Assembly (NCBI RefSeq): GCF_003430825.1
Contig: NZ_CP024047.1
Coordinates: 1,674,001 to 1,738,000, forward strand
Length of the DNA stretch: 64,000 nucleotides
Origin: Natrarchaeobaculum sulfurireducens
GTDB taxonomy: Archaea; Halobacteriota; Halobacteria; Halobacteriales; Natrialbaceae
Direction of reading: 5' to 3'
Shown here: piece after piece, positions 11,817-60,033 of the stretch
Layout of the letters: each line of letters starts with the position of its first letter
Position numbering within the stretch: position 1 is the stretch's first letter
The notes under the pieces: generated by a model
What the model was told of the DNA's origin: nothing
Seen by the model: only the letters and a program-made list of their open reading frames with translations
The model's database searches: none
Position numbers and translations under genes: made by a program

Positions 11817-12869
11817 TCACTCGAGCGACAGCGGCGCGTGCTCGAGACGGTAGCCGTCGTCGATCTCGTCGACGTCGACGACCTCCCGAAGTCGAATGCC
11901 GCGTTCCATCTTCGTCACGACCGGCGTCTCGTAATGGTCGGCGTCGTAGCCCAGACGCTTGCCCGACTCGCGACGCTCCGTGACGAACTCGCGGTGGCGT
12001 TCGAGCCGCGTCCGTCCCACCGATCGAGAGAGCGACGGCACCGTCCCGACACGCTCGGCGAACACCTCGAGAAACGTCTCCTCGAGTTCGTAGCCCACGG
12101 AATTCCGCCCGGCACACATCGCCGCAAGCGTGGTCGTGCCCGTTCCCCAGAAGGGATCGAAAACCGTGTCGCCGTACGCTGAATACATACAGATCAGCCG
12201 ATACGGGATCTCGAGCGGAAAGGCGGCCGACCGCTCGCGCAGCTCGTCGTCGTCGAACTCGATCGCCTGCAGTTCGCCGCGAACCTCGGTCCAGACGTCT
12301 GAGAACCACTGGTTTCGCTCCTCCCAGAAGAACGCGGCCTCGTAGCGCCGGTCGGCACGGGGTTCGAACTCGCGGCGCTCGCTCCCCTTTCGGAAGACGA
12401 GGACGTACTCGTGTTCTAACGTGACGTAGGCGTTCGGCGGCACCGTCCCGCTGCCCATGAACTTCGCCGTGCTGTTGGCCGGTTTGCGCCAGAGAACGTC
12501 CGGAAGTGGGTCGAACCCGCGGCTCTCGAACGCCTCGAGGACGCGCGCGTGATTCGGATAGACGCGAAAGCTCCCGTCGAGTGAGCGGGTCGCGTCACCG
12601 ACGTTGAGACACGCGATGCCGCCGTCGACGAGCACCCGCTCGAGTTCGTCCCAGACGCGGTCGAGCTGGGCGTGCATCGCCTCGAACGCTCGCGAACCAT
12701 CCCCCGACTCGAGCGCATCGGCGACCGTCGGATCGAGATCCGAAAAGAGGTCGTCCCACATCTCGATCATCGGATACGGCGGGGACGTGACGACGAGTTC
12801 GACCGACTCGTCCTCGAGACTCGAGAGCTGCCGGGAATCGCCGGCGTAGACGCGGTGGGTCGTCTCCAT
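11817..12869 (-). CDS. DNA amino-methyltransferase (TSPPY type), candidate CTAG methylase
   Basis: A 350-residue S-adenosylmethionine-dependent DNA methyltransferase of the beta class. Catalytic motif IV VVTSPPYPMIEMWDDLF comes first (around residue 25-40) and the SAM motif FDPFWGTGTTTLAAM much later (around 235), the order expected of N4-cytosine or N6-adenine methylases. I start at the ATG at 12869 (METTHRVYAGDSRQL), not at the upstream 12911. No restriction endonuclease is adjacent, so it is an orphan. From memory it resembles the Zim protein of Haloferax, which methylates CTAG; this is a hypothesis that needs a comparison. Confidence 0.82.
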   Translation of the reverse strand: METTHRVYAGDSRQLSSLEDESVELVVTSPPYPMIEMWDDLFSDLDPTVADALESGDGSRAFEAMHAQLDRVWDELERVLVDGGIACLNVGDATRSLDGSFRVYPNHARVLEAFESRGFDPLPDVLWRKPANSTAKFMGSGTVPPNAYVTLEHEYVLVFRKGSERREFEPRADRRYEAAFFWEERNQWFSDVWTEVRGELQAIEFDDDELRERSAAFPLEIPYRLICMYSAYGDTVFDPFWGTGTTTLAAMCAGRNSVGYELEETFLEVFAERVGTVPSLSRSVGRTRLERHREFVTERRESGKRLGYDADHYETPVVTKMERGIRLREVVDVDEIDDGYRLEHAPLSLE

Positions 12870-13010
12870 CGATTCACAGTGTCTGCGACGCTGCCTTAGG
12901 TCCTTCGTCACCGTCGACCGATTTCAGCCAGATCTGTGTCGGGAACAGAAAGTGTGGACATCTCGAGGCAGTCGGGAAAGCGGAACCGGGGTTGGCGTCG
13001 AGAAATCCAG

Positions 13011-25687: not shown

Positions 25688-25989
25688 TCTCGGCTTTCGA
25701 CCAGTGCACTACGCTGGCTCCTCCATTCCGCTCCGATAGCGTATTGATCTGTCTTTATTCGAGGTGTAATCCGCTACGTCCCCCCGGGCGATGACCGCCG
25801 ACGAGTCATACCGCACCGTCCCGTTCGGATGCGATCTCCCAACCAAACCGTCCCCGGCAACTTCAGCGAGCCGAGACATGTCCGGAGCGGCCTAGCTCGG
25901 GGAAAACGTGATGAAAACGGCTCCGTTACCCTTGGCAAGTATACTTTGAAATGTATTACTCGGCTTCCCCTCCCTCGAGCGTCAGTCGA
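25688..25989. other. Intergenic region without a gene
   Basis: About 300 bases after the geranylgeranyl-reductase-like gene. Short frames are open on the plus strand (from 25829) but the predicted peptide has no recognisable character. I see no tRNA or strong hairpin here. Confidence 0.35.
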
Positions 25990-26260
25990 TCGTAGCCAGA
26001 CTGAAACCGTTAAACGGCTCCCACTCGTATGTTAATTGCGTGCCTCTAGTCCCCGTCCGAGTATACCCATTCGGGTGCGATGACGGAACGGCGAACCCGG
26101 GCACGCCACACTACTGAACTGGGGACCGCTTCTGTGTCCCCCACCCGGCACGAGGGTTAGCCAGCTGACACGGCATGCCGCCACGGGATGAGGCTGGACG
26201 TTAGTGTTCCGGGTGACACATCCAACTGCTTGATACTGGATAGACTCATCAGGCCGTCTT
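25990..26260 (-). mobile_element. Relic of an IS200/IS605 (tnpB-type) element with possible omega-RNA end
   Basis: The minus strand reads a short frame (26258 to stop at 26157) ending in DVSPGTLTSSLIPWRHAVSA, which I believe resembles the extreme C-terminus of some haloarchaeal TnpB proteins. It is followed by about 150 bases of structured GC-rich sequence with stems such as GGGGAC/GTCCCC and ACCC-GAAT-GGGT, and ends in a palindrome CCGTTAAACGG (26007-26017). Haloarchaeal tnpB elements end with a non-coding RNA that overlaps the 3' end of tnpB. The rest of tnpB is absent. This is recognition from memory and has not been verified; a different structured RNA is possible. Confidence 0.4.
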
Positions 26261-26481
26261 ATCGGTGACGCGTGATTTCGACCGTCCGTGAACAGTCGGC
26301 ACCAGCTCGCTATTACTGAAATGTATCTCGAACAAGATTATATTTTGTGAACATAGCTGTCGGCGAGCCGCCAGTAGCCGTTTGTGTGACAGCGACCAGT
26401 ACCAAGCGGCGCTGGCGCTGGCGCTGGCGGGGAACGCACGAAAGTTCGACACCGTACGCTATCCAGTTCACAAATACGGAT

Positions 26482-26509
26482 AGCCCCCAGAGCTGCTGCT
26501 CTGGAGGCT
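26482..26509 (-). terminator. rRNA operon terminator hairpin
   Basis: A 12-bp stem with only one G-U pair: arms AGCCTCCAGAGC and GCTCTGGGGGCT (minus-strand reading), loop AGCA. It lies 15 bases past the 3' end of 5S rRNA, exactly where transcription of the operon should end. Confidence 0.75.
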
Positions 26510-26524
26510 TAATCCTATATGAGT

Positions 26525-26647
26525 AGTCGGCGGCGAATCCACGTTCCCAGAGGGTCTCCCACTCCAGTACTTGCCGATACGCGGGCGAGCTTATCTTCCG
26601 TGTTCGGGATGGGTACGGGAGGTCCCTCGCCGCTCTGGCCGCCGTAA
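26525..26647 (-). rRNA. rrf: 5S ribosomal RNA
   Basis: The minus strand begins TTACGGCGGCC and contains the conserved CCCGTACCCATCCCGAACAC, GGAAGATAAGC and AGTACTGGAGTG blocks, ending CGCCGCCGAC, which pairs with the 5' end. About 123 nt, normal for haloarchaea. Ends are accurate to a few bases. It follows 23S in the operon. No tRNA-Cys follows it, unlike in several other haloarchaeal rRNA operons. Confidence 0.92.
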
Positions 26648-26706
26648 CGCCGATCGACGGAGTCGAACCGTCACAAGACCATCATCGGTCGTATGTCATG
26701 TCTAAT

Positions 26707-26728
26707 ACCGTGTGTACGTGTAGTCCAG
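26707..26728 (-). other. 23S processing stem, downstream arm
   Basis: A 22-base arm that is the exact reverse complement of 29786-29807 on the other side of 23S rRNA; the pairing continues after small bulges with GGACCCG-type sequence. This is the bulge-helix-bulge substrate from which the archaeal splicing endonuclease releases pre-23S rRNA. Confidence 0.85.
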
Positions 26729-26774
26729 TTTGCGTCTGGACCCGTTCTCGGGTCCGATCCAAATGCGTTGTAGT

Positions 26775-29692
<2,918 letters not shown>

Positions 29693-29950
29693 CGTTCATC
29701 GGATCGACGTTGCGATAGAATCGCAACGGAATGTCGTCACACCGAAGTGTGACGATTGTGACCCGGGAACGGGTCCAGTGGACGCCTGGACTACACGTAC
29801 ACACGGTCTCATCTGCACGCCCGCTGACTAACGGGCCTGCATCAACCCTTCCCACTCACGCTTGCGCGGAGTGGTGCATCGGTTTCGTTCGGATCAGATC
29901 AAAGTTCCTTGCCACACTTAAGGGCACGGATCTCGATCCCATCCGAGGTA
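29693..29950 (-). promoter_or_regulatory. tRNA-Ala/23S spacer with internal rRNA promoter
   Basis: The spacer carries CCCTTAAGTGTGGCAAGG (minus strand, about 29907-29924), nearly the same as the TATA region of an upstream rRNA promoter (CCCTTAAGTGTACGAGG at about 31974-31986). I read it as an internal promoter that would give extra 23S/5S transcription, as described for some haloarchaeal operons. The spacer also contains the hairpin GTCACACTTCGGTGTGAC near 29735-29752 and the upstream 23S processing arm. Confidence 0.6.
29786..29807 (-). other. 23S processing stem, upstream arm
   Basis: A 22-base exact reverse complement of 26707-26728. The adjoining GGACCCGTTCCCGGGTC (near 29761-29776) pairs with a matching block downstream of 23S, so the full helix is interrupted by bulges as in the archaeal bulge-helix-bulge motif. 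Confidence 0.85.
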
Positions 29951-30022
29951 TGGACCCACTGGGATTCGAACCCAGGGCATCCTCCTTGCAAAGGAGGCAC
30001 TCTCCCACTGAGCTATGGGCCC
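29951..30022 (-). tRNA. tRNA-Ala (anticodon TGC)
   Basis: A 72-base cloverleaf on the minus strand: acceptor GGGCCCA paired with TGGGTCC, D-arm AGCTCAGTGGGAGAG, anticodon arm CTCCTTTGCAAGGAG with anticodon TGC, T-arm CTGGGTTCGAATCCCAG. It lies between 16S and 23S, the standard archaeal position. No intron is visible and CCA is not fully encoded. Confidence 0.97.
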
Positions 30023-30061
30023 ACCCCTGTCTCACGTCTCACGACAGCGAGACAGGGTGTT

Positions 30062-30080
30062 ATGTTAGCCTTGGTAGTTC
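30062..30080 (-). other. 16S processing stem, downstream arm
   Basis: The plus strand here (ATGTTAGCCTTGGTAGTTC) is the exact reverse complement of 31783-31801 in the rRNA leader. Beyond it, after a small bulge, GGTGCC and GATCGG blocks pair again with the leader. Together they form the bulge-helix-bulge helix around 16S. Confidence 0.85.
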
Positions 30081-30205
30081 AAAGGTGCCCGATCGGCCGA
30101 CGATGGGTCGATCGAACGTAGACCGTGTGGCGCAAAGCGCCACGGTTCGCCGTAGCGTAAAACGCTACATAAGGTGGGTCAGGCCATCGGCCTGATCCCG
30201 ATCTG

Positions 30206-31677
<1,472 letters not shown>

Positions 31678-51385: not shown

Positions 51386-52615
51386 TTATTCGGTCTCTTC
51401 GAGGACGGCTAGCCTGGAGTCTCGCAGGAGTACCTTCTTCACGATCGACGGGTTCTCGAGCAGGCGATGTTTCGCGTGCGCACCGCGGCCGCGCCCGCGA
51501 CCTTCGCGCTCGGATTGAATGACGTTGAGGAAGTTCTGTTCCTGAAGGATTTCCTGGACGCGCCGTTCGGAGAGTACGTCGAAATCGAGCTGGCGAGCGA
51601 CCTCTTTGTACTGGTTGTAGATGATCTTCGTCGGGAACTCTTTTTGTGTGCTGTTCTCGGTGAGCAGTGTCAGTGAGTAGAGGATCGCTTTCGCCTGCTG
51701 GGGCGAGCCTTCGATCAGTTCGTTGAATCGGTCGGCTTCGGTCTTCTCTTTCGCGTCGCGGACGTGGTTGGCCGTAACTCGCGTGGCATTTTGCTTCTTG
51801 GCAATCCGGCCGGCGTTTCGGAGGATGTCGATCGCCTTTCGTGCGTCACCGTGCTCCTGGGCGGCGAGTGCGGCCGTCAACGGAATCACGTCGTCGGACA
51901 GCACCCCGTCGTGGAACGCGTCCTGGCGTTTCTCGAGGATCTCGACGAGCTGGTTGGCGTCGTACGGCGAGAAGACGAGTTCGTCCCGTGAGAGACTCGA
52001 CTTGACTCGTTCGGAGAGGTGATCCGGGAAGTCGATCTTGTTCGAGATGCCGATGATACCGATGCTCGAGTTCGAGATGCGTCGGTTTTCGCCCGCTCGC
52101 GAGAGCTTGCGGAGGACTTCGTCGTCCTCGAGCATGTCGATCTCGTCCAGGATGACGATGGTCACGTCCGTACAACGGTCGACGGCCTGCCAAAGTCGTT
52201 TGTAGTAGTCGCCGGTGCCGAGGCCGCGGTCTGGAATCGAGACGCCGCTGTCACCGGGTTCGTTGACGAGTTGGGCGATCGTCTTGATGATCGATGCCTC
52301 AGTGTTCTGCTCGCCGCAGTCGATGAAGGCGTACTTTACTGTGACGTTGTCGCGTTCAGCCTCGGAGATCACCCGCTTTGTGACCGACCGAGAGATGAGC
52401 GACTTGCCAGTTCCCGTCTTTCCGAAGATGAACAGGTGGTTCGGTTCGCTCCCGAAAATCGCCGGGTTCAGGGCGTCCGCCACCCGCTGCATCTGCTCGT
52501 CACGGCCAACGATCCGGTCCGGACCGGGGAGGTGTGTGATCTCGAGCAACCGCTCGTCGGCAAAGACCGGATCGTCGTACCGAAAGAGTGGATCACGATC
52601 GTCGTTCGCGGACAT
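51386..52615 (-). CDS. orc1: Orc1/Cdc6 replication initiator
   Basis: A 409-residue AAA+ origin-binding protein. Walker A is FIFGKTGTGKSLISR (63-77), Walker B VTIVILDEIDMLEDDEVLRK (151-170), sensor 1 GIIGISNKIDF, and the C-terminal winged helix (about 310-400) contains AKAILYSLTLLTEN and LDFDVLSERRVQEILQ. The Glu/Arg-rich GRGRGRGAHAKHRL stretch lies in the wing. It is transcribed away from an adjacent ORB-containing origin, the standard position of the origin-linked haloarchaeal orc/cdc6 gene. Confidence 0.95.
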   Translation of the reverse strand: MSANDDRDPLFRYDDPVFADERLLEITHLPGPDRIVGRDEQMQRVADALNPAIFGSEPNHLFIFGKTGTGKSLISRSVTKRVISEAERDNVTVKYAFIDCGEQNTEASIIKTIAQLVNEPGDSGVSIPDRGLGTGDYYKRLWQAVDRCTDVTIVILDEIDMLEDDEVLRKLSRAGENRRISNSSIGIIGISNKIDFPDHLSERVKSSLSRDELVFSPYDANQLVEILEKRQDAFHDGVLSDDVIPLTAALAAQEHGDARKAIDILRNAGRIAKKQNATRVTANHVRDAKEKTEADRFNELIEGSPQQAKAILYSLTLLTENSTQKEFPTKIIYNQYKEVARQLDFDVLSERRVQEILQEQNFLNVIQSEREGRGRGRGAHAKHRLLENPSIVKKVLLRDSRLAVLEETE

Positions 52616-52717
52616 TGCAGTACCGGGTGGCTTCCAACCGAACTGAAATAAACCTATGGAGATCGATCGCGGGTGTAAATCCGCCGGCTCGAGTCGTTAC
52701 ACCCGCCTCACCGACCG

Positions 52718-52735
52718 TATTTATAATATATGACT
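52718..52735. other. AT-rich duplex-unwinding element of oriC
   Basis: TATTTATAATATATGA within an otherwise GC-rich region, 100 bases from the orc1 start and flanked by ORB-like boxes. It may also contain the TATA box of orc1. Confidence 0.6.
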
Positions 52736-52768
52736 CTGTCGCCGACCTCGCGCTTCTAACGCCGATTT

Positions 52769-52800
52769 GGGGGGGACTCACCTCGGTCGCGGATGTAACG
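52769..52800 (-). other. ORB box with G-string
   Basis: Minus-strand CGTTACATCCGCGACCGAGG followed by TGAGTCCCCCCC. Matches the origin recognition box core shared with the other boxes in this origin. Confidence 0.7.
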
Positions 52801-52828
52801 GAGACTCGAGGTGGGTTCTGGATAGGTG

Positions 52829-52860
52829 AGCGGGAGGGGAGCGAGAGGGGAGCGAGAGGT
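52829..52860. repeat. Purine-rich 11-bp tandem repeats
   Basis: The unit AGGGGAGCGAG occurs twice in a row within a longer purine-only stretch. It lies between the AT-rich element and the main repeat array of the origin. Confidence 0.55.
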
Positions 52861-52967
52861 GGTCGATGATGCGTTGATCAGACAGGAGAGATAGACGGTG
52901 GGAGAGGCGGAGGAAGCGGCAGGCACGATGGAAAATAGTTTCGACATGCTTGCTCGACCATACCAAC

Positions 52968-53066
52968 AGATCTCGTATCATGGTCCATGTTGCACCTAAC
53001 CGATCTCGTGCCACGGTCCGTATTGCACCTAACCGATCTCGTGCCACGATCCGCATCGCACCTAAG
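52968..53066. repeat. Three tandem 33-bp repeats inside oriC
   Basis: Units at 52968-53000, 53001-53033 and 53034-53066. Each starts (C/A)GATCTCGT, has a variable TCATGG or CCACGG-like middle, and ends with GCACCTAA(C/G). Units 2 and 3 differ at four positions or so; unit 1 is more diverged. There is no spacer, so it is not a CRISPR. The unit does not match the ORB core. Confidence 0.85.
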
Positions 53067-53070
53067 CATC

Positions 53071-53105
53071 GGAGGGGACACACACCCCCGTCGCGTTTGT
53101 AACGG
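53071..53105 (-). other. ORB box with G-string
   Basis: Minus-strand CCGTTACAAACGCGACGGGG followed by GTGTGTGTCCCC. Almost identical in reverse orientation to the box at 53226. Confidence 0.75.
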
Positions 53106-53170
53106 GTGAGAGAGGGGGTGGGTCTGATCTCATCTGGAGTGTTCCGAATAGTGGGCCAATTTCGACTGGA

Positions 53171-53199
53171 TTTTACACCCGCGATAGAGGTGTGTTCCA
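53171..53199 (+). other. ORB box
   Basis: Plus-strand TTTTACACCCGCGATAGAGG followed by TGTGTTCCA. Same core as the other boxes, without the long C-run. Confidence 0.75.
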
Positions 53200-53225
53200 G
53201 TACAGTACTCCCGGCTAAAACAAGC

Positions 53226-53255
53226 TTACAAACGCGACGGAGGTGTGTCCCCCCT
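53226..53255 (+). other. ORB box with G-string
   Basis: Plus-strand TTACAAACGCGACGGAGGTG followed by TGTCCCCCCT. Inverted with respect to the box at 53071. Confidence 0.75.
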
Positions 53256-53420
53256 CAGCAACCACCAGTCCTGCACGAAGCACCTGGCAAACGGCCCTCG
53301 TTTCCAGCAGACGCTTCCCTACAGAACGCGCGATTTTTGACGATTCGCCGTCAACCGACGACGTGAGTCCGGAACCGTCCGTTTACCGCCGCCGTTCCGA
53401 CCAGTGAACTCGAGACCGTC

Positions 53421-54188
53421 ATGACAGAATCACCCACCGCCTCCGACCTCCCATCAGACCGAACACCGCCAGCAGTCGCCGTCGTCGACGCACAATCGCC
53501 CGGCAACGTCGGAACGATCGCTCGAGCGATGAAGAACTTCGGCTTCGATGAGCTCCTGTTAGTCGATCCACCGGACCTCGATCCGGACGGTGAGGCGTAC
53601 GGCTTCGCCGGCCACGCTCGAGCGGACGTCCTTCCGAATGCAACCAAGCTATCGTTCGACGAACTCGCTACGAAGTACCATACGATCGGCTGTACGGCAG
53701 TCACGAACGAAGACGATCGGAGTCACATTCGATTTCCCTTCTCGACCCCAGCCCAACTCGCCGAACGGTTGCCAACGGTCGAAGCCCCGACGGCACTCGT
53801 CTTCGGTCGCGAACGGGTTGGACTGACGAACGACGAGCTAGCCAGAATCGACGAGATCTGCTCGATTCCAGCCAACGCGGCGTATCCCGTCCTCAACCTC
53901 GGGCAGGCTGCGACGATCACGCTGTATGAACTTCGGCCACTTACACTCGAGGCCGAGGAGACGCAACTTCCCGACCTCGAGCGGGTTCGTGCCTCGGAAG
54001 CAACGCTCGAACGGCTCTACGGCCAGTGGGGATCGCTACTCGAGGAACTCAACCACCCGGAAGAGAAGCGGCCCAAAACGATGCGAATGCTTCGGCGGGT
54101 CTACGGTCGAGCGGACCTCACCGAACGAGAGGCGAACACCTTCCTCGGGCTCCTCAGGCGGGCAACGGAACGTCCCGACGTGCGGTGA
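53421..54188 (+). CDS. SPOUT-family RNA 2'-O-methyltransferase, TrmJ-like
   Basis: A 255-residue methyltransferase of the SpoU/TrmH class. Motif 1 is AVVDAQSPGNVGTIARAMKN, motif 2 TALVFGRERVGLTNDELARI and motif 3 IPANAAYPVLNLGQAATITL, which form the knotted SAM site. Length, the NVGTIARAMKNFGF form and the C-terminal helical extension (TMRMLRRVYGRADLTEREAN) fit archaeal TrmJ, which methylates position 32 of some tRNAs. The start at 53421 follows the origin region. Target RNA not proven. Confidence 0.88.
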   Translation: MTESPTASDLPSDRTPPAVAVVDAQSPGNVGTIARAMKNFGFDELLLVDPPDLDPDGEAYGFAGHARADVLPNATKLSFDELATKYHTIGCTAVTNEDDRSHIRFPFSTPAQLAERLPTVEAPTALVFGRERVGLTNDELARIDEICSIPANAAYPVLNLGQAATITLYELRPLTLEAEETQLPDLERVRASEATLERLYGQWGSLLEELNHPEEKRPKTMRMLRRVYGRADLTEREANTFLGLLRRATERPDVR

Positions 54189-54210
54189 TATCTGACACTC
54201 GCTTCCACGT

Positions 54211-54260
54211 CTAGATCTAGTTCTAGTCTAGTTCTAGTCTAGTTATAAGCTAGTTCTCGT
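54211..54260. repeat. Array of seven CTAG sites in 11-bp tandem repeats
   Basis: CTAG occurs at 54211, 54217, 54223, 54228, 54234, 54239 and 54250. From 54217 the sequence is four 11-bp units: CTAGTTCTAGT, CTAGTTCTAGT, CTAGTTATAAG and CTAGTTCTCGT. It lies in the gap between two convergent genes. CTAG is strongly under-represented in haloarchaeal genomes, and outside the rRNA genes it is sparse in this window too. Confidence 0.85.
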
Positions 54261-54284: not shown

Positions 54285-54731
54285 TCACTTTTTGACGTCA
54301 GTGTGACAGTCGGGTGAACGGACTGGACACTCTTCGATCGATCGAAAGAAGGCGATCCCGTAGTCGTGGATTTCGGCGAAAAGGATCACGCATCCGGCGC
54401 TATCAGCCGTAGTGAACTCATCCCAGTCCCCGCTTTCGGCCTCCCGGACTCGGATCCGTAATGGCTCATCTGGCCAGACACAATCAATGGGCGTCCCATC
54501 CACTCCCGAGTCTAGCTTGTACGTGTCCTCGTGGACTACCTCGTCCGTATTGTTGTGCTCGAGTCTGAGTTCAACCGTGACGGACTCGTCACGATCATTT
54601 ATCAGAAGAAACCGTTGAAGGGTCCCATGGGACTCACCGGAGCCACCTAGACAGCCCGCCATAACTCCGGATCCAGCGATAGCACTTCCCTCGATGAACT
54701 GCCGTCGGTTCACAGTATAGTCTCGTGACAC
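54285..54731 (-). CDS. Tat-exported lipoprotein, function unknown
   Basis: A 148-residue protein with a Tat signal and lipobox: NRRQFIEGSAIAGSGVMAGC, Cys27. The mature part is an acidic beta-rich domain (GTLQRFLLINDRDESVTVEL, VHEDTYKLDSG, EPLRIRVREAES), of the kind often found in haloarchaeal surface lipoproteins. No domain name recognised. Convergent with the methyltransferase. Confidence 0.72.
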   Translation of the reverse strand: MSRDYTVNRRQFIEGSAIAGSGVMAGCLGGSGESHGTLQRFLLINDRDESVTVELRLEHNNTDEVVHEDTYKLDSGVDGTPIDCVWPDEPLRIRVREAESGDWDEFTTADSAGCVILFAEIHDYGIAFFRSIEECPVRSPDCHTDVKK

Positions 54732-56614: not shown

Positions 56615-58483
56615 TCAGGTCCGGTTTTGGATCTCCTCACGGAGCAGTTGACTCACGAGGTCGCCGTCTGCTTTCCCCCGGAGTGCACCCATACACTCGC
56701 CCATCAGCGCAGAGAACGCCTGCATACCCTCGTCTTCGACTTGGGCTTCGTTGCGCTCGACGACCTCGGCGACAGCCTCGCGGACTGCGTCATCGTCGAC
56801 GCCGCCGAGTCCGGCCGCTTCCGCGGCCGCGTCGGCCGTCAGGGCTGGATCGTCTGCGAGGGCGGTGAGGAGATCCGGAACGCCCTCGTTCGGGAGGTCG
56901 CCGGTTTCCACCATTTCCAACACGTCCGAGAGGTGGTCGTCGGTCAGGCTCTCAATAGGGACGTCGTCCCGGCGGAGTTCGGTTAGGGTGGACTCGAGCG
57001 TCGAGGCGGCAAGTGTCGGGTCGATGCCGTCGGCTACGACCTCCTCGAACAGCGGCATGTGTTTGCCGTAGGCGACCTGCTCGGCGAGACCGGCGTCGAG
57101 ATCGTACTCGGCCTGATAGCGCTCGACCTTCTCGGTCAGCAGTTCCGGCGTTGGAACCTCGCTCGGGTCCGGTTCGACCGGTGGCACGTCGGTCTCGGGA
57201 TACATCCGTGCCGCGCCGGGGAGCGGCCGGAGATACCGCGTCGTTCCGTCGTCGTTTGCACCCCGAGTCTCTTCGGGGACACCCTCGAGTGCTGTTTTCG
57301 CCCGTTCTGCGACGGCTTCGATCGCGCTTTCGGCGACGTCGGTGTCGTCGGCGACGATGGCGACGGCGTCTTGGGGGTCGGCACCGACGGCCTCGCGAAG
57401 CGATGTGACTTCCGCCTCGGTGACGCCGTACGCTGGCAGTTCGTCGGTGTGGAAAATGCCGCCAGCGCCGTGGCGCTTTGCGTGGTCTGAGAACTCGGTG
57501 CCGAGTCGACGATCCGGCGCGATCTCACGACCGACCAGTCCGTCGAAGCCCGAGAGTAAGACGGCCATCACGGACCCACCGTCGTTCAGTGCGCCGCGGA
57601 GAACACCGCTGTCAGTCTCTGTGAACACGTCGGTCACGTCCTGAGGCTTGCCGATGGCGGCGTCTCGTTCGGCCAACTCGTCGGCGATCTCGACGAGTGC
57701 GACCTGTCGTCCGACCTCGTTACGGACGATGTCGTCGATGTCGTCGAGACTCTGGACGCCTTTGATCTCGACGCGAGAACCAGCCGCGATGGAGACGTTG
57801 ACGTCCTGGCGGATCGTCCCGAGTCCGCGCTTGACTTTGCCCGTCGAGCGAAGCAACATGCCGATGCGCTCGGCGGCCTCGAGCGCCTGCTCGGGACTCG
57901 AGATGTCCGGGCTGGTCCCGATTTCGACCAGTGGGATCCCGAGTCGGTCGAGGCTAAACCGGACGCCGTCGTCGGTTTCCTCGATGCGCTGGGCGCTTTC
58001 TTCTTCGAGCAACAGATCTTCGATCCCGACGGCTCCGTCGCTGGTTTCGATCTCGCCTTCGGTAGCGATCAACGTCGAGCGCTGGAAGCCCGTCGTGTTC
58101 GAGCCGTCGACGACGATCTTTCGCATGACGTTGGCCTGATCGACCGGTGCCATGTCCATCAGCTGTGCGACCTCGAGGGCGGTCTCGAGGGCTTCCTCGT
58201 CGAGTTCGTGGGGCGGTTCGTCGTCCGCTTCGACGAGACAGGTCGAGTCGTACGCGAGGTATTCGAACTCGCGGTCGACCTTGCTCTCCTCGACGGCGGC
58301 CGCGTCGAGTTCGCCCAGTTCGCTGCGCGTGGGGTGGAGATACCGGGTGAACGTCCGGGTTGCTTCTTCGGGTTCGCGAAGCTCGGTCGGACACTGACAG
58401 AACAGTTTCGTCGCCGTATCGAGTTGCTGGTGGATCTCCAGCCCGGCGACGAGTCCGAGTTCCTCGTAGTCGTACTCGGTCAT
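56615..58483 (-). CDS. gatE: Glu-tRNA(Gln) amidotransferase subunit E
   Basis: A 622-residue subunit of the archaeal GatDE complex that makes Gln-tRNA(Gln) from Glu-tRNA(Gln). GatB/E core: GLVAGLEIHQQLDTATKLFC with QCP (zinc site), NVMRKIVVDGSNTTGFQRST, GTIRQDVNVSIAAGSRVEIK. The AspRS-like insert (LSGFDGLVGREI) and the YqeY-like tail (EGMQAFSALMGECMGALRGK) distinguish GatE from GatB. The ATG at 58483 (MTEYDYEELG) is used; an in-frame extension to 58633 runs through a tandem repeat and is rejected. gatD is not in the window. Confidence 0.95.
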   Translation of the reverse strand: MTEYDYEELGLVAGLEIHQQLDTATKLFCQCPTELREPEEATRTFTRYLHPTRSELGELDAAAVEESKVDREFEYLAYDSTCLVEADDEPPHELDEEALETALEVAQLMDMAPVDQANVMRKIVVDGSNTTGFQRSTLIATEGEIETSDGAVGIEDLLLEEESAQRIEETDDGVRFSLDRLGIPLVEIGTSPDISSPEQALEAAERIGMLLRSTGKVKRGLGTIRQDVNVSIAAGSRVEIKGVQSLDDIDDIVRNEVGRQVALVEIADELAERDAAIGKPQDVTDVFTETDSGVLRGALNDGGSVMAVLLSGFDGLVGREIAPDRRLGTEFSDHAKRHGAGGIFHTDELPAYGVTEAEVTSLREAVGADPQDAVAIVADDTDVAESAIEAVAERAKTALEGVPEETRGANDDGTTRYLRPLPGAARMYPETDVPPVEPDPSEVPTPELLTEKVERYQAEYDLDAGLAEQVAYGKHMPLFEEVVADGIDPTLAASTLESTLTELRRDDVPIESLTDDHLSDVLEMVETGDLPNEGVPDLLTALADDPALTADAAAEAAGLGGVDDDAVREAVAEVVERNEAQVEDEGMQAFSALMGECMGALRGKADGDLVSQLLREEIQNRT

Positions 58484-58586
58484 TGGCGGGCACTCGGAGC
58501 CGGAGGGGTAAAAAACCGTCCAGTTACGCCGCCCGTGGGGCGGATCGGCCCACGACCGCCCGTCGTCACTCCCTTCCCACCGCCAG

Positions 58587-58708
58587 TCGTCGTCTCCAAT
58601 CAATCGTTGCCTGCCGCCGGTCGTCGTCTCCAATCAATCGTTGCCTGCCGCCGGTCGTCGTCTCCAATCAATCGTTGCCTGCCGCCGGTCGTCGCCTCCA
58701 ATCAATCG
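58587..58708. repeat. 34-bp tandem repeat, 3.6 copies
   Basis: Units at 58587-58620, 58621-58654 and 58655-58688, then a partial fourth to about 58708. Each contains TCGTCGTCTCCAATCAATCG and TTGCCTGCCGCCGG. The three full units are identical. The last partial unit enters the 3' end of btuD (its stop codon lies in the CCAATCAATCG part). No spacers, so not a CRISPR. Confidence 0.9.
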
Positions 58709-60033
58709 TCGTCCGCTGTCGATTCGGTCCGTGCGTCGACGCTCGAGACGGGTCGGCCGGTCATCGCGGCGCAAACACCCTCGAGAACGGCCACGGCGTC
58801 GGTTTCGACCGCTCGGCGGCGACACGCCTCGTAGTGCCATCGTGCTCGGTCGCCGGCGTGATTTCGCTCTGCGAGTGGCCGACGCTCGACGACGACCAGC
58901 GGTCCCGACTCACGAACCGCCTCGAGAACGACTTCGTTGCCCGGTCCGATCGTCACGTCCGCGAGGACCGTCACGTCGGCTGTTTCGACGGCCTGCTCGA
59001 GAGCAGCCCTCGTCTCAGCAGACGGCGGCGAGAACGGGGCCGTGTCGATCGCTTCGACGCCGAGTTCCCGCGCGGTCTCAGCCAGCGGGCCGTCGCTCGG
59101 AACCGGTCCGACCGAACAGTCGATCGCGGTCCTCGTGAGCCTCGAGAGGACGGTCATTGCCGTGGTTCCGGTTCCGAATACGTGAACCCGATCCGGGAGC
59201 GGAACGTCAACGGGTGAGCCGTCCGCCGACTCCTCGAGTGTGGCGGGGAGGGCGGTTACCACTGGCGTCCCGGTGACGGGATTTGGCGTGACAGCCGCCG
59301 AGACGTCAAAGGCGGAGGCGAGCGTCTCTGAGGTGAGGACGTCGGCAGGGTCGCCGTCGGCGACGACCGATTCGTTGGCGACGACCACCAGCCGGTCGCA
59401 GTACCGCGCTGCGAGGTCGAGATCGTGGATCGCAGCGACGACCGTTCGCCCGTCGTCGACCAGATCACGAACGAGCTCGAGTGTCTCGATCGCGTGGTTG
59501 ACGTCCAGGCTTGCGGTCGGTTCGTCGAGCAACATGATGGGGGTATCCTGCGCAACCGCGCGTGCAAGGACAACGCGCTGGCGTTCACCGCCGCTGACGT
59601 CGTCGATCGCCCGGTCGGCGAACTGTGCGGTGCGTGTCCGCTCGAGTGCTCGGTCGACGAGTTCGCGATCGGTCGCGCTCGGTGGCGAGAATCGTGAGCG
59701 ATGTGGATACCGCCCCATCTCGACGACGGTGCGGACGTCGAAGGAAAACGAGACCGACGTGTCCTGCGGAACGACGGCGACCAGCCTGCTCGCGTTGCGA
59801 GACGAGAGTTCGTGTAAGTCAGTTCCGTCGACGGCGACGGTGCCAGTGTCAGGCTCGAGTGTTCCCGACAGGACTCGGAGCAAGGAGGTTTTGCCAGCGC
59901 CGTTCGGGCCGACGAGGCCGACGAGTTCGCCGGGGTCGACGACGAACGAAACGTCTGAGACGACGTCTATGTCGCCGAACGAGATCCCGACGTTCCGCAC
60001 GTCGATGGAGCCGTGTGATTCGTCGTCGCTCAT
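58702..60033 (-). CDS. btuD: Cobalamin ABC transporter ATP-binding protein with C-terminal extension
   Basis: A 443-residue protein. Residues 8-260 form an iron/B12-type ABC ATPase: Walker [21 protein letters not shown], signature [20 protein letters not shown], Walker [18 protein letters not shown] and the switch His in [13 protein letters not shown]. The remaining 180 residues ([60 protein letters not shown]) are a separate alpha/beta domain not found in bacterial BtuD. It overlaps btuC by 4 bases. Confidence 0.9.

Follow-up and report, generated by a model that had tools for sequence, protein, structure and literature searches.

A CTAG cluster behind trmJ as a functional-looking, origin-linked element in Natrarchaeobaculum sulfurireducens

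The 64,000-nucleotide stretch of Natrarchaeobaculum sulfurireducens DNA analysed here (the window) carries a short array of CTAG sites that is real and non-random, and nearly all of the family Natrialbaceae retains an orc1-linked cluster of this kind. We regard the array as a functional-looking, origin-linked element. Its best explanation, to which we give about an even chance, is an origin-linked CTAG cluster of an oriC1-type origin that has moved past trmJ and takes part in methylation-sensitive control of firing. The features of the window on which the following analysis draws are listed below.

51386-52615, minus strand: orc1/cdc6 initiator gene of an oriC1-type origin, 409 aa (Pfam Cdc6_lid and Cdc6_C; TIGR02928, E 1.9e-123)
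52616-53420, no strand: orc1-trmJ intergenic origin region, 805 bp, from which the two genes diverge
53071-53103, minus strand: left ORB-like element carrying a G-string, GAGGGGACACACACCCCCGTCGCGTTTGTAAC, in inverted orientation with respect to the right one (read from the sequence)
53226-53254, plus strand: right ORB-like element, TTACAAACGCGACGGAGGTGTGTCCCCC (sequence and motif positions)
53421-54188, plus strand: trmJ, SpoU-family RNA methyltransferase (Pfam SpoU_methylase; TIGR00050, TrmJ/YjtD family)
54211-54253, no strand: CTAG cluster of 7 CTAG, built of CTAGTTCTAGT units (sequence and Tandem Repeats Finder)
54285-54731, minus strand: small ORF, 148 aa, with a lipoprotein-like start, convergent with trmJ (open reading frame)
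11817-12911, minus strand: probable orphan m4C CTAG DNA methyltransferase, 364 aa, with an SPPY motif (PF01555, E 8.7e-36)

As described in the initial annotation, seven CTAG sites are packed into about 43 bases (54211-54253). Our reading places their starts at 54211, 54217, 54223, 54228, 54234, 54239 and 54250, with steps of 6, 6, 5, 6, 5 and 11 bp. The description of the array as 11-bp repeats holds in part. Tandem Repeats Finder detects an 11-bp period at 54210-54257 (4.3 copies, 86% matches), but the exact unit CTAGTTCTAGT is present in only two places, 54217-54227 and 54228-54238, and the ends of the array are degenerate. The suggestion of a common face of the DNA for all sites had to be abandoned. 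Since the steps are mostly 5-6 bp, neighbouring sites are separated by about half a turn and thus sit on opposite faces, and the clusters of relatives display no 10-11 bp phasing.

The window contains 37 CTAG, whereas 70 are expected from its trinucleotide counts and dinucleotide shuffles of the window give about 105. CTAG is therefore depleted in this stretch, in line with the rarity assumed at the outset, and 7 of the 37 sites are found in the array alone. Throughout the whole genome (3.79 Mb), at least three CTAG separated by no more than 25 bp occur at five places only: the array itself (7 sites), C3:12-98 (6), C3:3346426-3346478 (4), C3:1228731-1228751 (3) and C1:16197-16229 (3). These were located by a triplet pattern search, in which the array is the densest cluster of the genome; GATC, being common here, was useless as a null. 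Within the window, the stretch 25892-31621 is also richer in CTAG, with 12 sites in 5.7 kb. It corresponds to an rRNA operon (5S, 23S, tRNA, 16S), which accounts for the CTAG density at 26-32 kb. CTAG is reported to be less depleted near rRNA genes, and the density over this operon agrees.

The surroundings of the array point at an origin of replication. The ORB-like pair between orc1 and trmJ is inverted and both elements harbor G-strings, a combination published as the signature of haloarchaeal oriC1 (PMC3528665). Measured from the right ORB, the array is 957 bp away, close to the earlier estimate of about 1 kb from the origin. Its placement in a gap between convergent genes was also correct, with trmJ ending at 54188 and the minus-strand ORF occupying 54285-54731. 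Hence trmJ stands between the origin and the array, which starts 22 bp past the trmJ stop codon. The orc1-trmJ gap of the window (52616-53420) holds no CTAG; nearly all relatives have a cluster there. The small ORF at 54285-54731 has no match in Pfam or NCBIfam and has a 68% identical relative in genome G027. Two further tandem repeats were noted in the window: a 33-bp repeat in three copies (86% matches) at 52965-53065, in the orc1-trmJ gap and adjoining the left ORB, and a 34-bp repeat in 3.8 copies (97% matches) at 58580-58709, at the start of the minus-strand ORF 56615-58633.

A link to the origin is indicated by a census of 99 Natrialbaceae genomes, in which the orc1 ortholog was accepted at E <=1e-180, about 3.6 kb upstream of orc1 was taken, and a cluster was defined as at least 3 CTAG separated by no more than 25 bp. 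Of the 99 genomes, 92 have a cluster in the 2 kb upstream of orc1, with a median of 5 sites (range 3-10) and a median span of about 39 bp. The enrichment is restricted to the vicinity of the gene: 94 clusters were counted in the 197,536 bp within 2 kb of orc1 versus none in the 155,664 bp of the further 1.6 kb, and CTAG density falls from 3.36 to 0.39 per kb. The right ORB served as reference point for distance. The cluster usually sits about 100-270 bp outside the ORB pair, and in the orc1-trmJ gaps with both landmarks its start is 111-270 bp from the right ORB on the outer side, apart from a single case at 622 bp. CTAG triplets occur in 80 of 125 family genomes, frequently in the vicinity of trmJ and orc1. 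The seven genomes without a cluster at orc1 are G002, whose contig stops short of the region, G127 and G128, with two CTAG left, and G017, G019, G023 and G092.

A comparison across loci allows the contributions of the two flanking genes to be separated. In the locus scan, loci with orc1 and trmJ adjacent have the cluster between the genes in nearly all cases, and loci with the genes apart have none at trmJ. At locus L121, where orc1 is found elsewhere, the cluster is beside orc1, and at other loci diverged orc1/cdc6 paralogs have clusters at a distance of about 110-680 bp. Absence at trmJ without orc1, together with presence where orc1 has moved, indicates that the cluster follows orc1 and not trmJ. 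This bears directly on a role of the array as operator or terminator for trmJ or for the small gene facing it. The start of the array only 22 bp behind trmJ would fit such a role, but in most relatives the cluster is upstream of trmJ, where trmJ is located elsewhere the cluster stays with orc1, and in G003 trmJ has no such small gene alongside. As the cluster follows orc1, we reject a regulatory element of trmJ, and consider the operator or terminator reading as a whole very unlikely.

The position behind trmJ is shared with few genomes. A first comparison of named family loci contained none with the array there. The congener G003 displays 8 CTAG in 43 bp behind trmJ, in the same place as the array of the window, so the displaced form is present in the window and in its one testable congener. 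In another genus, the clusters of G016 and G124 are likewise behind trmJ, while those of their sisters G121-G123 are unshifted. On a trmJ tree the two displaced groups are separate, with moderate branch support and with the state of G002 not covered, which suggests at least two displacements. Given that the cluster can be on either side of trmJ, its position relative to this gene is free, whereas its nearness to the origin is not.

The sequence between CTAG sites differs between genera and the CTAGs themselves persist. This difference in the intervening DNA shows that the number of CTAG is what is kept, rather than any longer sequence. The same observations bear on the proposal that recent slippage or duplication produced the array and that it has no function. 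The 11-bp tandem period with its 86% match speaks for this proposal. However, G003 has a cluster in the same place, relatives have theirs with other spacer sequence (92 of 99 genomes near orc1), and neighbouring control DNA has none. Close relatives therefore do carry the cluster, contrary to what the initial annotation had named as grounds for doubt, and recent slippage fails as the whole account; we would assign it a slight chance at best. It may explain the 11-bp regularity alone, which is probably a local tandem duplication inside a selected cluster.

Composition offers another way to look at the clusters. In 42 orc1-trmJ gaps, 286 CTAG were seen versus 166 expected, and they are clustered in 40 of the 42. 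No other palindromic tetramer combines strong enrichment with clustering in these gaps. Among other AT-rich tetramers, TTAA is seen 18 times versus 50 expected, AATT forms no clusters, and TATA and ATAT are clustered in 4 and 2 gaps, respectively. Mean GC is 0.38 in cluster DNA versus about 0.55 in the gaps. This low GC, near the ORBs, could be taken as a hint at an AT-rich accessory region for unwinding or entry at the origin, in which the CTAG excess would be a by-product of base composition. We reject the by-product explanation on the basis of the tetramer comparison, other AT-rich palindromic tetramers being neither enriched nor clustered. Moreover, the cluster is outside the ORB pair and can be about 1 kb off behind a gene, which makes an AT-rich accessory region improbable. 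Spacing within the clusters is not uniform: of about 420 steps, 94 are of 5 bp and 66 of 6 bp, with 4 bp rarer at 28, and the arrangement CTAG-A/T-CTAG is present in 52 of 92 genomes.

A candidate for the enzyme acting on these sites is encoded in the window itself. The protein of 11817-12911 shares 48.9% identity over 90% with the methyltransferase of the Methanothermobacter plasmid NC_001337, which we take to be pFZ1, the plasmid that encodes M.MthZI. This enzyme has been characterised as forming m4C at CTAG and is homologous to HVO_0794 (PMC5867850), the protein shown by Ouellette et al. (2018) to make m4C at CTAG in Haloferax volcanii (PMC5867850). Judged by its sequence, the window thus encodes a probable CTAG-type methyltransferase. 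The CTAG methyltransferase family has been described as orphan (Fullmer 2019; Ouellette 2018, PMC5867850), and m4C at CTAG is documented in Natrinema pallidum, a member of the same family as our organism (PMC12160562). As a side observation, the matched methyltransferase stretch of G101, G102, G017, G080 and others contains a stop codon.

Across 391 Halobacteria, a methyltransferase match (E <=1e-20) was found in 333. CTAG triplets occur in 209 of the 333 positive genomes versus 17 of the 58 negative ones (Fisher p 2.6e-6), a class-level correlation that is confounded with phylogeny, as most negative genomes belong to one clade. Within genus g33, triplets are present in 3 of 7 positive and 9 of 39 negative genomes (p 0.36), and presence there does not follow the enzyme. 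An orc1 search in 80 genomes of another family, some with and some without the methyltransferase, gave only 5 matches, the gene being too diverged at the threshold used. Eight of the 17 triplet-bearing negatives carry 4-5 CTAG at 281-286 bp from an orc gene on one plasmid-like replicon family (loci L278, L279, L283, L284, L285, L288, L289 and L290). That these eight keep their sites indicates that a cluster can exist without the enzyme, at least for a time.

These exceptions give weight to the main rival, in which a CTAG-binding protein, for instance of a partition (centromere-like) or nucleoid-organising type, would land on the cluster near the origin independently of methylation, and the methyltransferase link would be incidental or modulating. 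Persistence of clusters at plasmid-type orc genes in the eight negative genomes agrees with such a site, and the dominance of 5 and 6 bp steps, with 4 bp rarer, suggests a steric rule. The SegB motif of Sulfolobales, TCTAGASTCTAGA, contains two CTAGs (PMC12284271), which was the reason to consider partition. When the motif was searched for, its core AGASTCT was seen once versus 2.4 expected, and the SegB consensus was not clearly enriched over spacer-shuffled controls. We identified no partition gene beside the cluster in the window, and at the level of the class the clusters' link to the methyltransferase, though confounded with phylogeny, is strong. On balance we consider the methylation-independent site rather unlikely, and favour methylation-sensitive origin control over it.

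Methylation-sensitive control has exceptions of its own to accommodate. G017, G019, G023 and G092 have the methyltransferase and an orc1 without cluster, and the negatives described above keep theirs. In Haloferax volcanii, CTAG is enriched at one origin only, and a mutant lacking multiple RM genes, including that of the CTAG enzyme, grows without defect (Ouellette et al. 2018; PMC5867850). Most orc genes of the present genome are also without a cluster: the remaining ones and the starts of plasmid-like contigs have none. Two of the orc1/cdc6 genes found do have one, and these two clusters are the largest in the genome. The second of these, C3:12-98, comprises 6 CTAG in 87 bp at 663 bp from another orc1/cdc6 gene (L155, L300-L303), and continues across the contig junction to 9 CTAG in about 335 bp. 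Clusters distant from orc genes were seen in two other genera (L165 8319-8415, L166 8070-8126, L167 8154-8210 and L168 8064-8083), immediately after a gene that encodes a winged-helix protein; they may represent a second kind of CTAG site.

A sequence of events can be proposed for methylation-sensitive control at this origin. The probable orphan CTAG methyltransferase of the window would make m4C at the sites of the array, and the cluster would be hemimethylated right after the origin fires. A putative protein would then read the cluster or its methylation and delay re-initiation or mark the new origin copy, comparable to the action of GATC clusters, Dam and SeqA at the oriC of E. coli, with the density of CTAG in a short patch favouring cooperative binding. 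Under such a scheme the exact position of the cluster would be of minor importance provided that the origin is near, and selection on the number of CTAG would keep the cluster, while the 11-bp pattern would probably have arisen by local tandem duplication within it. A more specific form would be a relocatable, methylation-read origin element in which selection maintains a certain minimum of CTAG sites, many of them half a turn apart, no further than about 1-2 kb from the origin; such an element could be rebuilt across a gene and would be acted on by a SeqA-like archaeal reader. We offer this only tentatively, as a possibility; we know of no SeqA-like reader. The notion of a methylation or protein-binding landmark put forward in the initial annotation was the right kind of answer, in view of the probable CTAG methyltransferase gene and the family-wide linkage to the origin.

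The clusters touch on the question of whether archaea use DNA methylation in replication control. In this family nearly all genomes of the census carry the element; it is specific for CTAG, is subject to sequence turnover at a kept number of CTAG, stays with orc1 and has moved past a gene at least two times. With the natural variants of the cluster, what CTAG methylation does at origins becomes open to direct tests in culturable halophiles; for one of the Natrialbaceae, Natrinema sp. J7, vectors built on chromosomal origins are available (PMC5350488). Fullmer et al. (2019) regarded the function of CTAG methylation as an open question.

Several known systems resemble parts of this arrangement. 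The oriC of E. coli, with GATC, Dam and SeqA, similarly places dense sites of an orphan methyltransferase beside an origin. There the mark is m6A at GATC, in contrast to the m4C at CTAG predicted here, and our sites are outside the initiator boxes. The sites of SegB, a ribbon-helix-helix protein that binds archaeal centromeres (PMC12284271), are likewise short palindromes that contain CTAG and are tied to chromosome segregation, but their spacing differs and they are scattered over the chromosome, whereas the array is one cluster at one origin. The G-rich inverted repeat that acts as enhancer at Haloarcula hispanica oriC1 also serves as an accessory element at this type of origin (PMC3936714), but is G-rich and located inside the ORB pair (PMC3936714).

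The closest precedent is the work of Blow et al. (2016), who correlated CTAG clusters at haloarchaeal orc1/cdc6 genes with a conserved orphan methyltransferase (PLoS Genet, Fig 6D; PMC4752239) and proposed a role in replication (PMC4752239); the motif is printed as CATG in their main text and as CTAG in the figure legend (PMC4752239). Looked at in the same way, the array is a non-coding cluster beyond chance, in an orthologous orc1/cdc6 location, accompanied by a methyltransferase gene recognised from sequence only. Common to both data sets are non-coding CTAG clusters at orc1/cdc6, more than one origin per genome and an encoded CTAG-type methyltransferase. The constant position outside the ORBs, the sequence turnover and the displacement behind trmJ were not found in the open-access papers searched, which is weak evidence of novelty. 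What differs here is that trmJ separates the cluster from a CTAG-free origin gap and that the sites form a regular 11-bp two-site tandem. Origin CTAG clusters have thus been known since 2016, and the array adds one in an unusual position.
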